Source of the DNA: Candidatus Lithacetigena glycinireducens
GTDB taxonomy: Bacteria; Coprothermobacterota; HKB111
DNA: 5,309 nt
Direction of reading: 5' to 3'
Assembly (NCBI GenBank): GCA_018725485.1
Contig: QLUP01000073.1
Span: 1 to 5,309, forward strand
Under the pieces are notes generated by a model. It saw nothing but the letters and a program-made list of their open reading frames with translations. It did no database searches and was not told where the DNA came from. Made by a program: the position numbers and the translations under genes. This document shows, in pieces, positions 1,221-5,309 of the stretch (the first letter of the stretch is position 1; each line of letters opens with the position of its first letter).

Positions 1221-1231
1221 TTAAAGGTCGA
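1221..1231 (+). promoter_or_regulatory. TTAAAGGTCGA motif, copy 1
   Basis: First of three near-identical motifs. AAAGGTCGA begins 45 bases before the ATG at 1268, exactly as copy 2 does before the ATG at 1836. Its role is unknown: it could be a phage-specific promoter element, an operator or an mRNA signal. AAAGG matches part of the Shine-Dalgarno consensus but lies too far upstream for normal initiation. Confidence 0.5.
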
Positions 1232-2287: not shown

Positions 2288-2575
2288 ATGGAGGGATTTC
2301 GCACAGGCATAAGAGAAACATTCCAGGTAAAAACTCTGGTGATGTTATTAGCAGCTGTTATTGGTTATATGGCAGCTCGACTTCTTCAGCAGCATGTTTT
2401 GAGAAGAATAGATTTTCTGGCAAGAACTCCAGAGGTTTCTGACCTTCTTGTTATGGTTTTAGGTGCTGGTTTTATAAGGGGAGATAACGGAACAGCAGTA
2501 GTAATTGGTGCTGGTATTTCGTTGGTAAATAATCTTGGAACAAGATTTAGAATTGATTGGTTGCGTGTTGGATAA
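2288..2575 (+). CDS. Small membrane protein, putative virion membrane component
   Basis: A 95-residue protein with a likely transmembrane helix at about 16-33 (TLVMLLAAVIGYMAARLL) and a second Gly/Ala/Val-rich hydrophobic region at about 52-80 broken by FIRGDNGT, perhaps a helical hairpin. Positive charges (R5, R9, R31, R39, R40) flank the segments. No enzyme motif is visible. It is the first gene after the strong promoter and lies directly before the two beta-rich structural candidates. That fits a minor membrane protein of a lipid-containing virion; a holin is the main alternative because lysis-type genes lie downstream. The ATG at 2288 has no Shine-Dalgarno before it. Confidence 0.65.
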   Translation: MEGFRTGIRETFQVKTLVMLLAAVIGYMAARLLQQHVLRRIDFLARTPEVSDLLVMVLGAGFIRGDNGTAVVIGAGISLVNNLGTRFRIDWLRVG

Positions 2576-2580
2576 AAAGG

Positions 2581-2613
2581 TTAGGTTAGAAGTTTTTGAA
2601 AACGATAACCTAA
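2581..2613 (+). other. Intergenic hairpin between membrane and first capsid-like gene
   Basis: TTAGGTTA (2581-2588) pairs with TAACCTAA (2606-2613), and inside it GTTT/AAAC can pair around TTGA. It lies 10 bases before the ATG at 2624 and has no T run. An mRNA processing or translation-tuning role is more likely than termination. Confidence 0.4.
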
Positions 2614-2623
2614 TTCACCAAAA

Positions 2624-3163
2624 ATGAGAAAAGAAAATATACATCAAGGTTATGCTTTCGTAACACTCACACCAAACATTGCCCGCGCTGATTCTCCTAT
2701 TGCCACATTGACAGTTCCAGCAGGTAGGGTTTTCCGAATGCAGGATGCCACTCCTTTAGTTCTCAAATTATTCAGGTCTGACGGTGTTGAAATTTCAAGA
2801 GATTCAGAGGTTTATCTGGCTTGGCAACCCCCAGTTGGTAAAACTATTTACCAAGCGGGAAGAACAATGAATTACGGAATATTTAGAAGAATTCCTATTA
2901 CCGAACAGGAAAACATTAACACCCAAGCAAGGAGATTGATTGAATTTGATGATGAGGAAATTCACAGAGCTCAAAGAGGAGAAGCAAGCCTTATTACTGG
3001 TCTAACCTCTAACTACAGAGTTTTACTAATGTTGAGGTCACCCGATGTGGTTGATTGGGCTAACCCTGCTTCTGAATTTAACTTTGAGATGATTGTTTTG
3101 ACTGAGAGTGAATTCGTTGCTGAACAAGGAGTAGGACAAGAGCAATTAGGACAAGAACAATAG
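2624..3163 (+). CDS. Putative small major capsid protein (single beta-barrel type)
   Basis: A 179-residue soluble, beta-rich protein without signal peptide. After an N-terminal arm, alternating strands appear: ATLTVPAGRVFRMQD at 27-41, PLVLKLFRSDG at 44-54, EVYLAWQPP at 62-70, NYRVLLMLRS, and EFNFEMIVLTESEF near the end, like a closing jelly-roll strand. A helical stretch (about 92-119) and a Gln/Gly/Glu tail (GVGQEQLGQEQ) are present. It shares IAxxxVPAxR...LKL with the next gene. Its size is close to the small capsid proteins of P23-77 (VP16) and SH1 (VP7), and like them it lies next to a larger partner. I did not recognise it by direct sequence memory; the capsid call is inference. A minor virion or adhesion protein is possible. 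Confidence 0.5.
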   Translation: MRKENIHQGYAFVTLTPNIARADSPIATLTVPAGRVFRMQDATPLVLKLFRSDGVEISRDSEVYLAWQPPVGKTIYQAGRTMNYGIFRRIPITEQENINTQARRLIEFDDEEIHRAQRGEASLITGLTSNYRVLLMLRSPDVVDWANPASEFNFEMIVLTESEFVAEQGVGQEQLGQEQ

Positions 3164-3206
3164 GGTAGTCGGTCAAAAATACGGGTTACCTTATTAGTAA
3201 AGAACT

Positions 3207-3950
3207 ATGGAGAAACTTACTATTTCTCGAAAATTTGCTCGGTTAGAAACGAAAGATTTTACCATTTTCGCTAACCAAAGAGGTTATGAGAGCGAGATAG
3301 CGGAATATGTTGTCCCTGCCAAGAGAATGATTGAAATTCCAAATGACTTTATCGGTTTGAAGTTAATGACAGGAGATCGGTTTACCTTTACTACTGGTGT
3401 TGGGGAAACAACCAGAGCTCTTGTCCTAACTTATCCGATTGCCAGAGATAGCTTAATTCCATTGGTAGGTCAGAATGTGATTGTCGTTCGTCGAACCCCT
3501 GCTCCAGTAATAGAGTGGACTACTTTTTCCGTTACCGAACCGAGGACAGTAACATTAACAGGGTTATTAGCGAGCACTGCTTATGTTTTTGATGTTTACT
3601 ACTTGTTTGGAGTAGGAAGTGTAAATATCACGGTTATTTCTGCTGACGAAACTGCCAGGACAAAGATTTTAGAAAGCGCAATCAGGAAGATAAATATGCT
3701 AAATCAAGAAGATGTTAGAATGGGTTTAAAGCCTGGAATGGTTGGTTTGTGTATTCCAGAAAGATACAAAATCCAAGTTAGAGTTAATACCCCAGCTCCT
3801 GTCATCCTTTTTGACCCAGTTGTTGACGCTGGAGCAAGGAGTAGATTTGCCAGAGAAAGCTTTATTGAATTACCTGTAAATGTTTCCGATTTATTGCAGT
3901 GGCCTGAAGATATTGAACGATACGCTAAACAGCAACTAATGGCGCTTTGA
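3207..3950 (+). CDS. Putative large major capsid protein with beta-sandwich insertion
   Basis: A 247-residue beta-rich protein. Residues 31-57 (IAEYVVPAKRMIEIPNDF, then GLKL) match the motif in the preceding 179-residue protein. Residues about 90-145 look like a fibronectin-III-like sandwich (RTVTLTGLLASTAYVFDVYY at 113-132). A helix follows at about 150-166, then strands return (GLCIPERYKIQVRVNTPAPV at 180-199). The hexapeptide TPAPVI occurs twice (97-102, 195-200). A barrel interrupted by a tower domain would fit the large capsid proteins of P23-77 (VP17) and SH1 (VP4), of similar length. The gene follows after 43 bases and ends before a long hairpin, so the pair forms the end of one transcription unit. 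Capsid function is inferred, not recognised. Confidence 0.5.
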   Translation: MEKLTISRKFARLETKDFTIFANQRGYESEIAEYVVPAKRMIEIPNDFIGLKLMTGDRFTFTTGVGETTRALVLTYPIARDSLIPLVGQNVIVVRRTPAPVIEWTTFSVTEPRTVTLTGLLASTAYVFDVYYLFGVGSVNITVISADETARTKILESAIRKINMLNQEDVRMGLKPGMVGLCIPERYKIQVRVNTPAPVILFDPVVDAGARSRFARESFIELPVNVSDLLQWPEDIERYAKQQLMAL

Positions 3951-3975: not shown

Positions 3976-4018
3976 CAAAAACAAGGTTAGACCAAGAAAT
4001 TGGATAACCTTGTTTTTG
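3976..4018 (+). terminator. Long GNRA-capped hairpin, intrinsic terminator of the structural operon
   Basis: CAAAAACAAGGTTA (3976-3989) pairs perfectly over 14 bases with TAACCTTGTTTTTG (4005-4018). Inside, CCAA (3992-3995) pairs with TTGG (4000-4003) around a GAAA tetraloop, with a small GA/A internal loop. Five T's (4013-4017) form part of the right arm. It lies 25 bases after the large capsid-like gene. Because the U run is inside the stem it may terminate only partly, allowing read-through to the hydrolase. Confidence 0.75.
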
Positions 4019-4029
4019 GAAAGGAAGAT

Positions 4030-4083
4030 ATGACTGAAAACGCTGAAAGGAAGAAACCAAATAATTTAAAAGACAGAATTTAA
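4030..4083 (+). CDS. 17-residue leader-like peptide upstream of and in frame with the hydrolase
   Basis: ATG after a good AAGGA (4021-4025) encodes MTENAERKKPNNLKDRI and stops at TAA 4081-4083. It is in the same frame as the hydrolase that starts 21 bases later. It could be a translational-coupling leader or a former N-terminus cut off by a stop mutation. Arms GACAGA (4072-4077) and TCTGTC (4086-4091) put its stop codon in a hairpin loop just before the hydrolase ribosome site, so translation of the leader would open that hairpin. Confidence 0.45.
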   Translation: MTENAERKKPNNLKDRI

Positions 4084-4104: not shown

Positions 4105-4719
4105 TTGAAAAAAAATATGTGGATTGAGCACGTAAGACCATTTTTTCGTTTAAGTCCTCTACAATTGATTTGTTTGACCGCCTACGGAGAGGCAAGGGGA
4201 GAAGGGCGTAGAGGAATGCAAGCGATTATCAATGTTATTCATAACCGTAGATTACACCCAATACGGAGATTTGGAGATTTAGAGATATTAGAAGAAACTC
4301 GCTCACCTTATCACGCAGTTATTTTAAAAAGATGGCAATTTAGCGTATTTAATTTAGATGACAGAAATAGGGGAATAATGCTAAGATTATCTAACCCACG
4401 CATTTTCGAAGGCGAAGCCAGAAATAATAATTACCTGAAAATAGCTGTTGAATTAGGAGAATTATTAAGGAGAGGGACATTAGTAGATATTACAGGAGGA
4501 GCAGACCATTATCTCAGATTTGATCTTAGACGAGAATGGACAAGAGGAATGGTTTTCCGAGGTAGAATAGGTAACCATGTGTTTTGGTCGGAACCACCTC
4601 ATTATTTTCAATCTCCCCAAATTTACCATCCTGAAATAGATTATGTTAGACCAGCGCCAACTCCTCCTGAAGCATTGCCAATTCTTGGAGTAGGAGGTTT
4701 AATTATTGCTGGTGGTTAG
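4105..4719 (+). CDS. SleB/CwlJ-family cell-wall hydrolase
   Basis: Cleaves peptidoglycan; the spore protein SleB of this family is a lytic transglycosylase. A 204-residue protein. Residues 25-47 carry TAYGEARGEGRRGMQAIINV and HNR, with E29 the likely catalytic glutamate. WQFSVFN is at 77-83, GADHYLRFD at 132-140 and IGNHVFW at 155-161, in the order typical of Hydrolase_2 domains. There is no signal peptide. The C-terminus ends in a hydrophobic Gly/Ile run (LPILGVGGLIIAGG, 191-204) after a proline-rich linker, perhaps a short membrane-associating tail. Translation probably starts at TTG 4105 because of AGAGG at 4092. It ends in tandem stops TAG TAA, and the LysM gene starts 6 bases after the first stop, so the two are cotranslated. 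It is likely an endolysin or a virion-borne penetration enzyme. Confidence 0.88.
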   Translation: MKKNMWIEHVRPFFRLSPLQLICLTAYGEARGEGRRGMQAIINVIHNRRLHPIRRFGDLEILEETRSPYHAVILKRWQFSVFNLDDRNRGIMLRLSNPRIFEGEARNNNYLKIAVELGELLRRGTLVDITGGADHYLRFDLRREWTRGMVFRGRIGNHVFWSEPPHYFQSPQIYHPEIDYVRPAPTPPEALPILGVGGLIIAGG

Positions 4720-4725
4720 TAAAAT

Positions 4726-5309
4726 ATGGTTAAAGATTTAAAATTAAAAAAAAGAACAATTAAGTATCTTGTTTTAGGTGGCGTTGCTTTAGCTATTTTG
4801 TTGTTAAGTAGAAGAAAGCCTGATGAGGCTGTTAAAGCAGTAGAATTACCGCCTCCAATTGAAGAGATTTCCAAGGTAACCCCATCTCCAAGAAGACTTC
4901 CTCAACCTCCAGCTCTGCAAGCCAACACAGAGTATTATAGAGTTCGGAAAGGAGATACCCTCTGGAAAATAGCGGAGAGGATTTTCGGAGCAGAGCAGGG
5001 AAGAAGGTGGGTAGAAATACACAGATTAAATCCTCAAATTCTTAACCCGAATAAACTTTATGAAAATCAAATAATTTTAGTTCCCAGAGTATCACCTATT
5101 CCCCCAACTCCTCAACCTACTCTTCCAACTCCTCAACCTTCAATCAAAGCTGCTACCGCCAAAGAAATAACTCGTTTCAGAAGAAGATTAAACGAAGAAA
5201 TTGATAAACTTTACAGAGGAGTTTACGGCAGAGCTTGGGCACGGGAAAGAGTTATTGAGGTTCTTAAAAGGGAGTTTCCTAATATTGATGTTGCTCGTGC
5301 TGTTTATAC
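4726..5309 (+). CDS. Membrane-anchored LysM peptidoglycan-binding protein, 3' partial
   Basis: The frame is open from ATG 4726 through the right edge (194 whole codons). After a basic start, residues 14-28 (YLVLGGVALAILLLS) form one transmembrane helix followed by RRK, so the bulk may lie on the side opposite to the N-in rule and cannot be oriented with certainty. A proline-rich linker (41-63) precedes a LysM domain at about 70-121: YYRVRKGDTLWKIAERIFG, then RRWVEIHRLNP and ending NQIILVPR. A second Pro/Thr/Gln linker (PTPQPTLPTPQPS) spans 127-139, followed by a helical Arg/Glu-rich region that runs off the window. LysM binds N-acetylglucosamine chains of peptidoglycan. Directly downstream of the hydrolase, it probably anchors wall degradation at a membrane, virion or cell. 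GGTGG at 4711-4715 is a possible ribosome site. Confidence 0.88.
   Translation, partial: MVKDLKLKKRTIKYLVLGGVALAILLLSRRKPDEAVKAVELPPPIEEISKVTPSPRRLPQPPALQANTEYYRVRKGDTLWKIAERIFGAEQGRRWVEIHRLNPQILNPNKLYENQIILVPRVSPIPPTPQPTLPTPQPSIKAATAKEITRFRRRLNEEIDKLYRGVYGRAWARERVIEVLKREFPNIDVARAVY

Follow-up and report, generated by a model that had tools for sequence, protein, structure and literature searches.

We find that a 5309-bp metagenomic contig is very probably a piece of a tailless icosahedral double-stranded DNA virus of helvetiavirus type that contains an internal membrane, or of the provirus or plasmid form of such a virus. The stretch analysed here, hereafter the window, is the whole of contig G000:C176 (36% GC), which belongs to the bin of a 1.24-Mb metagenome-assembled genome that is 83% complete, and all of its clear genes lie on the + strand. 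An earlier note had proposed that a membrane protein and two beta-rich proteins encoded side by side in the window include the two-protein capsid of a membrane-containing virus. The three adjacent open reading frames were confirmed: a putative major virion membrane protein of 95 amino acids (2288-2575), the predicted counterpart of SH1 VP12 and SNJ1 VP6; a predicted small major capsid protein of 179 amino acids (2624-3163), corresponding to P23-77 VP16, SH1 VP7 and SNJ1 PB7; and a predicted large major capsid protein of 247 amino acids (3207-3950), corresponding to SNJ1 PB2, P23-77 VP17 and SH1 VP4. The genes are separated by gaps of 48 nt and then 43 nt. Homology to P23-77-, SNJ1- and SH1-like counterparts was found for all three genes, in agreement with the proposed capsid pair, and the likeness in size and order that had been pointed out for P23-77 and SH1 extends to SNJ1. 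The window cassette (95-179-247 amino acids) is in fact fitted even better by those of SH1 (VP12, 94; VP7, 185; VP4, 232) and SNJ1 (VP6, 97; PB7, 158; PB2, 239) than by that of P23-77 (VP15, 138; VP16, 173; VP17, 291).

The strongest evidence comes from the small capsid protein. In open searches the only Pfam family reported for the 179-residue protein was PF22024 'VP16-like' (E 0.12), the only PHROG was phrog_32692 (E 0.094), which is the P23-77 VP16 family, and the top match among 177,635 PDB sequences was VP16 (3zmo, E 0.43); a weak match to Tsatsa MCP1 was also found. As results of open searches these Pfam, PHROG and PDB matches all fall short of significance; VP16, however, had been named beforehand in the earlier note, so the single-test E-value is the relevant measure. 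Against a VP16 HMM built from P23-77, IN93 and Tsatsa, the protein scored 16.1-16.8 bits, with single-test E-values between 2e-7 and 4e-7 (3.8e-7 at 16.1 bits), a score reached by 0 of 2000 and 0 of 3000 shuffles. A three-family HMM raised this to 25.4 bits over residues 3-96 (single-test E 5.5e-10; 0 of 1000 shuffles), with the runner-up among about 1750 ORFs at 5.8 bits. Pairwise comparison gave a nearly full-length alignment with SNJ1 PB7 (Z 5.2) and a local alignment with VP16 (Z 8.0). Taken at the level of sequence, the case for homology of this gene to the helvetiavirus small capsid genes is strong.

The large capsid protein is recognised chiefly through the SNJ1 family. An HMM of SNJ1-like PB2 proteins matched the 247-residue protein with 12.0 bits (single-test E 4.8e-6; 0 of 1000 shuffles), the runner-up ORF scoring 6.5 bits. 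This match consists of two collinear blocks nearly in register (residues 10-71 with 15-76, and 166-224 with 167-223), and the two proteins are almost equal in length. A three-family large-capsid HMM gave 8.0 bits (E 1e-4), and neither the P23-77-like VP17 HMM nor the SH1 VP4 profile, each used alone, gave a significant score. When the SNJ1 family was omitted from the three-family profile the E-value rose to 0.03, and with significance thus lost, the match rests mainly on that family. We also added the 247-residue protein to two-family profiles and scored the family that had been held out. The score of the SNJ1-like large capsid proteins rose from 4.0 to 16.2 bits, a gain equalled by 0 of 60 shuffled copies (maximum 9.9); that of the VP17 proteins rose from 6.3 to 21.3 bits, a gain equalled by at least 1 of 60 shuffled copies (maximum 21.8); and that of the SH1-like family rose unremarkably, from 15.1 to 19.2. 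Structure prediction with AlphaFold2 reached a pLDDT of 33 for the protein alone and of 40 with about 7-8 distant sequences in the alignment. The latter model had VP17 (3zn6, 3zmn) as its top PDB match (E 0.02, TM 0.24-0.31), with VP17 itself in the input alignment, and SH1 at rank 13; the single-sequence model (pLDDT 33) returned meaningless matches only, none to VP17. Because VP17 was part of the input and confidence was too low, the structure matches were set aside as evidence either way. From the profile comparisons, there is good reason to regard this gene as homologous to the helvetiavirus large capsid genes.

The 95-residue protein, called a membrane protein in the earlier note, is hydrophobic and has two stretches that are likely to span the membrane. 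A profile of SNJ1 VP6 and SH1 VP12 matched it with 8.6 bits (single-test E 1.2e-4; 0 of 1000 shuffles) and ranked it first among 1748 ORFs. Since background ORFs reach 6.7 bits with this profile, and a wider profile that includes P23-77 VP15 places the protein only third among about 1750 ORFs, this is the weakest of the three matches, and homology to the VP6 and VP12 genes is weakly to moderately indicated. With the exception of that wider profile, the profiles of the three positions each rank their own window gene first among about 1750 ORFs, and the family profiles give clear matches only on the window gene in the corresponding position. After correction for 90 comparisons the values are about 5e-8 for the small capsid protein, 4e-4 for the large one and 0.01 for the membrane protein. 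The small capsid gene is followed directly by the large one in the window, and the same order is found at loci L006, L096 and L097. The motif that the two capsid proteins had been said to share is present as letters (TVPAGRVFRM...LVLKL and VVPAKRMIEI...IGLKL), but their pairwise similarity is not significant (451 of 2000 shuffles scored as high). The shared motif is, however, the very region in which the small-capsid profile gives the 247-residue protein a score better than expected by chance (10 of 3000 shuffles). It is the match of each gene to its own helvetiavirus family that clearly exceeds chance. Overall, homology of the capsid pair is well supported.

By analogy with P23-77, SH1 and SNJ1, we infer a jelly-roll fold for the 179- and 247-residue proteins. 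They would act as major capsid proteins of the single-jelly-roll type, the former as the small and the latter as the large one, and would assemble into pseudo-hexameric capsomers built from the two chains. The 95-residue protein would be the major protein of a membrane under the shell. Downstream of the capsid genes lie two genes whose products may act on the peptidoglycan of the host, opening it or binding to it, when the virus enters or lyses the cell. A SleB-type cell-wall hydrolase of 204 amino acids (4105-4719; PF07486 at 29.7 bits, where the cut-off is 27; endolysin phrog_938, E 1.8e-10) is a putative lysis or entry enzyme. The membrane-anchored LysM protein that follows (4726-5309, its 3' end cut by the contig end; Pfam LysM, 32.9 bits; endolysin phrog_380, E 1.1e-13) has an N-terminal hydrophobic stretch and is a putative peptidoglycan-binding virion or lysis protein. 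Between the large capsid gene and the hydrolase gene we observed a perfect 14-bp inverted repeat at 3976-4018, directly 3' of the former, and after it a 17-codon ORF (4030-4083) with a good ribosome-binding site. Upstream of the cassette the window encodes an N6/N4 DNA methyltransferase (1-969, its 5' end cut by the contig end; PF01555, 124.5 bits; phrog_67, E 7.7e-53), a small BED-zinc-finger-like protein (1585-1785), whose Pfam score lies just below the cut-off, and an acidic coiled-coil protein (1836-2105). Similarity of the methyltransferase to a gene on contig G008:C257 proved to be an ordinary family match (31%).

The capsid operon is preceded by a leader (2113-2287) that contains a good sigma-70-like promoter (2113-2141, 11/12 match), two large inverted repeats (2139-2208 and 2167-2246) and then the sequence TAAAGGTCGA at 2248-2257. 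The region 2113-2257 looks like a structured leader or attenuator; an Rfam search with it gave no match. TAAAGGTCGA occurs in three exact copies on the + strand of the window (1222-1231, 1790-1799 and 2248-2257), which lie 40-46 nt upstream of the ATG codons at 1268, 1836 and 2288, the first copy thus preceding a small basic ORF. Three copies were obtained in 0 of 200 shuffles, even allowing one mismatch, and the sequence is found nowhere else in the 1.24-Mb bin. No Shine-Dalgarno sequence was seen at any of the seven starts inspected in the window. Our simplest guess is that TAAAGGTCGA is a replicon-specific regulatory or initiation signal. The basic ORF (1268-1300) encodes the 10-residue peptide MAKKKRKKKK, and a second tiny ORF (1351-1431) encodes an acidic 26-residue peptide with a glutamate run at its end; a terminator-like hairpin lies between the two.

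Comparison with the three named families shows that each shares different features with the window. The Thermus phages of the Matshushitaviridae (P23-77, IN93, Tsatsa) have adjacent small and large capsid genes, encode lytic enzymes and infect bacteria, the kind of host proposed for the window, and their VP16 is the strongest single-family match of the small protein. They differ in their high GC content, in an identity of only about 21-26%, in the greater length of VP17 (288-293 amino acids against 247) and VP15 (138-142 against 95), and in the ATPase gene that P23-77 carries one or two genes upstream, which is not the case in the window. The cassettes of the Simuloviridae (SNJ1, HJIV1, NVIV1; 91-97, 158-163 and 239-245 amino acids) are nearly equal in size to that of the window, PB2 is the best single-family match of the large protein and PB7 is aligned by the small protein over almost its full length; these viruses, however, have haloarchaeal hosts, an identity of about 20% and an ATPase gene just upstream of the cassette. 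The Sphaerolipoviridae (SH1, PH1, HHIV-2, HCIV-1) share the order VP12-VP7-VP4, in which VP12 is the major membrane protein (PMC5332951), but infect archaea, carry a run of further virion genes downstream and match the window weakly in sequence (E 0.003 for the small protein, none for the large protein alone). VP16-like proviruses have also been described from Archaeoglobus veneficus (ArcVen-P3) and Dehalococcoides sp. CBDB1 (PMC4158269). Compared by description only, these resemble the window in having a divergent VP16-like gene outside Thermus and the haloarchaea, one of them in a bacterium, and differ in that a packaging ATPase is reported for them and none is seen in the window; conversely, no detectable VP17 is reported for ArcVen-P3, whereas the window has a large capsid gene. 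The Huracanviridae, uncultured viruses of ANME-1 archaea with single-jelly-roll capsid proteins related to Helvetiavirae (PMC9894754), again compared by description only, differ in their archaeal hosts.

Identity of the window proteins to known members is only 13-26%, which argues for a new deep branch outside the named families, as had been suggested. Capsid similarity of the level found within families was seen with none of the Matshushitaviridae, Simuloviridae or Sphaerolipoviridae. Rough trees place the window apart from the three named clades, its branch measuring 1.4-1.6 substitutions per site, with a topology that is unreliable owing to poor alignment. By homology of its predicted proteins the window is a helvetiavirus (Helvetiavirae / Halopanivirales, realm Singelaviria) that belongs to no described family; its branch equals the three named families in depth and would count as a new one at family level.

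Identity this low, together with a strongest single-family block of just 42 residues, might suggest chance similarity of short beta-rich proteins; however, the single-test E-values of 5.5e-10 and 4.8e-6 are reached by no shuffle and three genes occur in the correct order, so that coincidence is very unlikely. It is also very unlikely that the beta-rich proteins come from the head, neck or tail of a phage of the tailed kind. In keeping with a tailless virus, Pfam and PHROG detected no terminase, portal, tail or HK97-fold capsid gene within the window. The same bin does hold a contig, C141 (L010), with a tailed-phage head module at 1436-8147 that comprises a large terminase, a portal and scaffold-like and capsid-like genes, and which gave a weak 28-residue match to the 247-residue protein, raising the possibility that the two contigs derive from one genome. 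Against this, each cassette protein finds its match in a helvetiavirus family and none among the families of tailed phages, and the two contigs differ in several respects: Shine-Dalgarno sequences precede 6 of 7 inspected starts on C141 (read by eye) against 0 of 7 in the window, GC content is 40% against 36%, and the codon usage of the window correlates less well with C141 (r 0.68) than with the bin chromosome (r 0.85). Because of these differences, and since TAAAGGTCGA is absent from C141, the two are unlikely to be the same replicon.

A virus fragment of the helvetiavirus kind is likewise preferred over a domesticated or defective element, in which the capsid genes would be kept in a plasmid or chromosome and no virions made. 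The window contains three of the four conserved cassette genes, in the right order, and the contig ends without the fourth, the packaging ATPase. No FtsK/HerA-type packaging ATPase is present on this 5.3-kb contig, whose ends are cut, and none is recognisable elsewhere in the bin, where the P-loop matches are to host FtsK, FtsE, ABC and other proteins. The unseen ATPase and the small size of the fragment would fit a domesticated element, but the cassette ORFs are intact and lysis-type genes adjoin them, and we consider this explanation unlikely.

The FtsX of the bin shares 84% identity with its counterpart in Ca. Psychracetigena formicireducens, and on this protein, the sole basis of the assignment, we would place the bin in Lithacetigenota, taking Ca. 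Psychracetigena as a member. Lithacetigenota were described from the serpentinizing springs of The Cedars and Hakuba Happo (PMC9751293). The cell-wall hydrolase and the LysM protein indicate a peptidoglycan-bearing host, which excludes most archaea. Dehalococcoides lacks peptidoglycan and is therefore also excluded; its provirus is among the few bacterial relatives described before (PMC4158269). The host is thus probably bacterial, and only possibly a member of Lithacetigenota. Viral contigs of 5 kb are often mis-binned, and that the window is a helvetiavirus fragment from another organism of the spring, bacterium or archaeon, falls just short of an even chance; this would change the assigned host and leave the main reading intact. 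Mis-binning is favoured by the fact that no spacer-like match to the window was found in nine genomes of the phylum, and by codon usage: host subsets of equal size mostly show r of at least 0.92, and the window, at 0.85, lies outside their range, which means that its style is not that of the chromosome. On the other hand, the codon usage, the low GC content and the sparse Shine-Dalgarno use of the bin are all compatible with this host, and the peptidoglycan hydrolase speaks against an archaeal source, as it does against Dehalococcoidia if these lack peptidoglycan like Dehalococcoides.

Helvetiavirae, of which very few are known, have formed the core of their own realm, Singelaviria, since 2025 (PMC12714852). 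Their narrow host range (haloarchaea and Thermus) has been taken as an argument for a recent offshoot (PMC8328091), and in an opposing view they arose independently, out of proteins of cells (PMC8812541). That hyperalkaline serpentinizing water holds a fourth deep lineage, and this in a bacterial context, speaks for a wide and old distribution. We propose tentatively, at somewhat below even chances, that the window derives from a virus of the uncultured serpentinite-spring phylum Lithacetigenota that would be the founding member of a family, or of a taxon of higher rank, new to Singelaviria. If so, the hosts of viruses with two-jelly-roll capsids include bacteria that are distant from Thermus, low in GC and equipped with peptidoglycan, and these viruses have a far greater age and spread than their known host range suggests. 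The large protein of the window also provides a bridging sequence: its inclusion in profiles improves the mutual recognition of large capsid proteins across families, which could make further viruses of this kind easier to detect in metagenomes.

Our searches for relatives covered several collections. Neither peptide-pattern scans of IMG/VR and GTDB contigs nor tblastn of phages and plasmids recovered close relatives of the capsid proteins, and in a GTDB scan whose query combined the small capsid protein with part of the host FtsX, all noteworthy matches were to FtsX. Profiles were also run against 398 genomes from the phylum to which a Clostridiales MAG belongs and 379 from the phylum of a Parcubacteria MAG, and the single match obtained was weak and at the level of chance. 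The search with the cell-wall hydrolase found no close relative, and that with the LysM protein a single match of 27% in the LysM domain (L082). When the bin was searched for the rest of the virus, no contig with the window's ends or TAAAGGTCGA was found. Apparent matches to the leader on contig C217 of G008, the sister genome, were dismissed as A+T-rich chance similarity, C217 carrying ordinary genes. Two IMG/VR contigs (L088 and L090) carry P23-77-like capsid genes, which were missed by the VP17 pattern scan and found by a VP16 motif scan.
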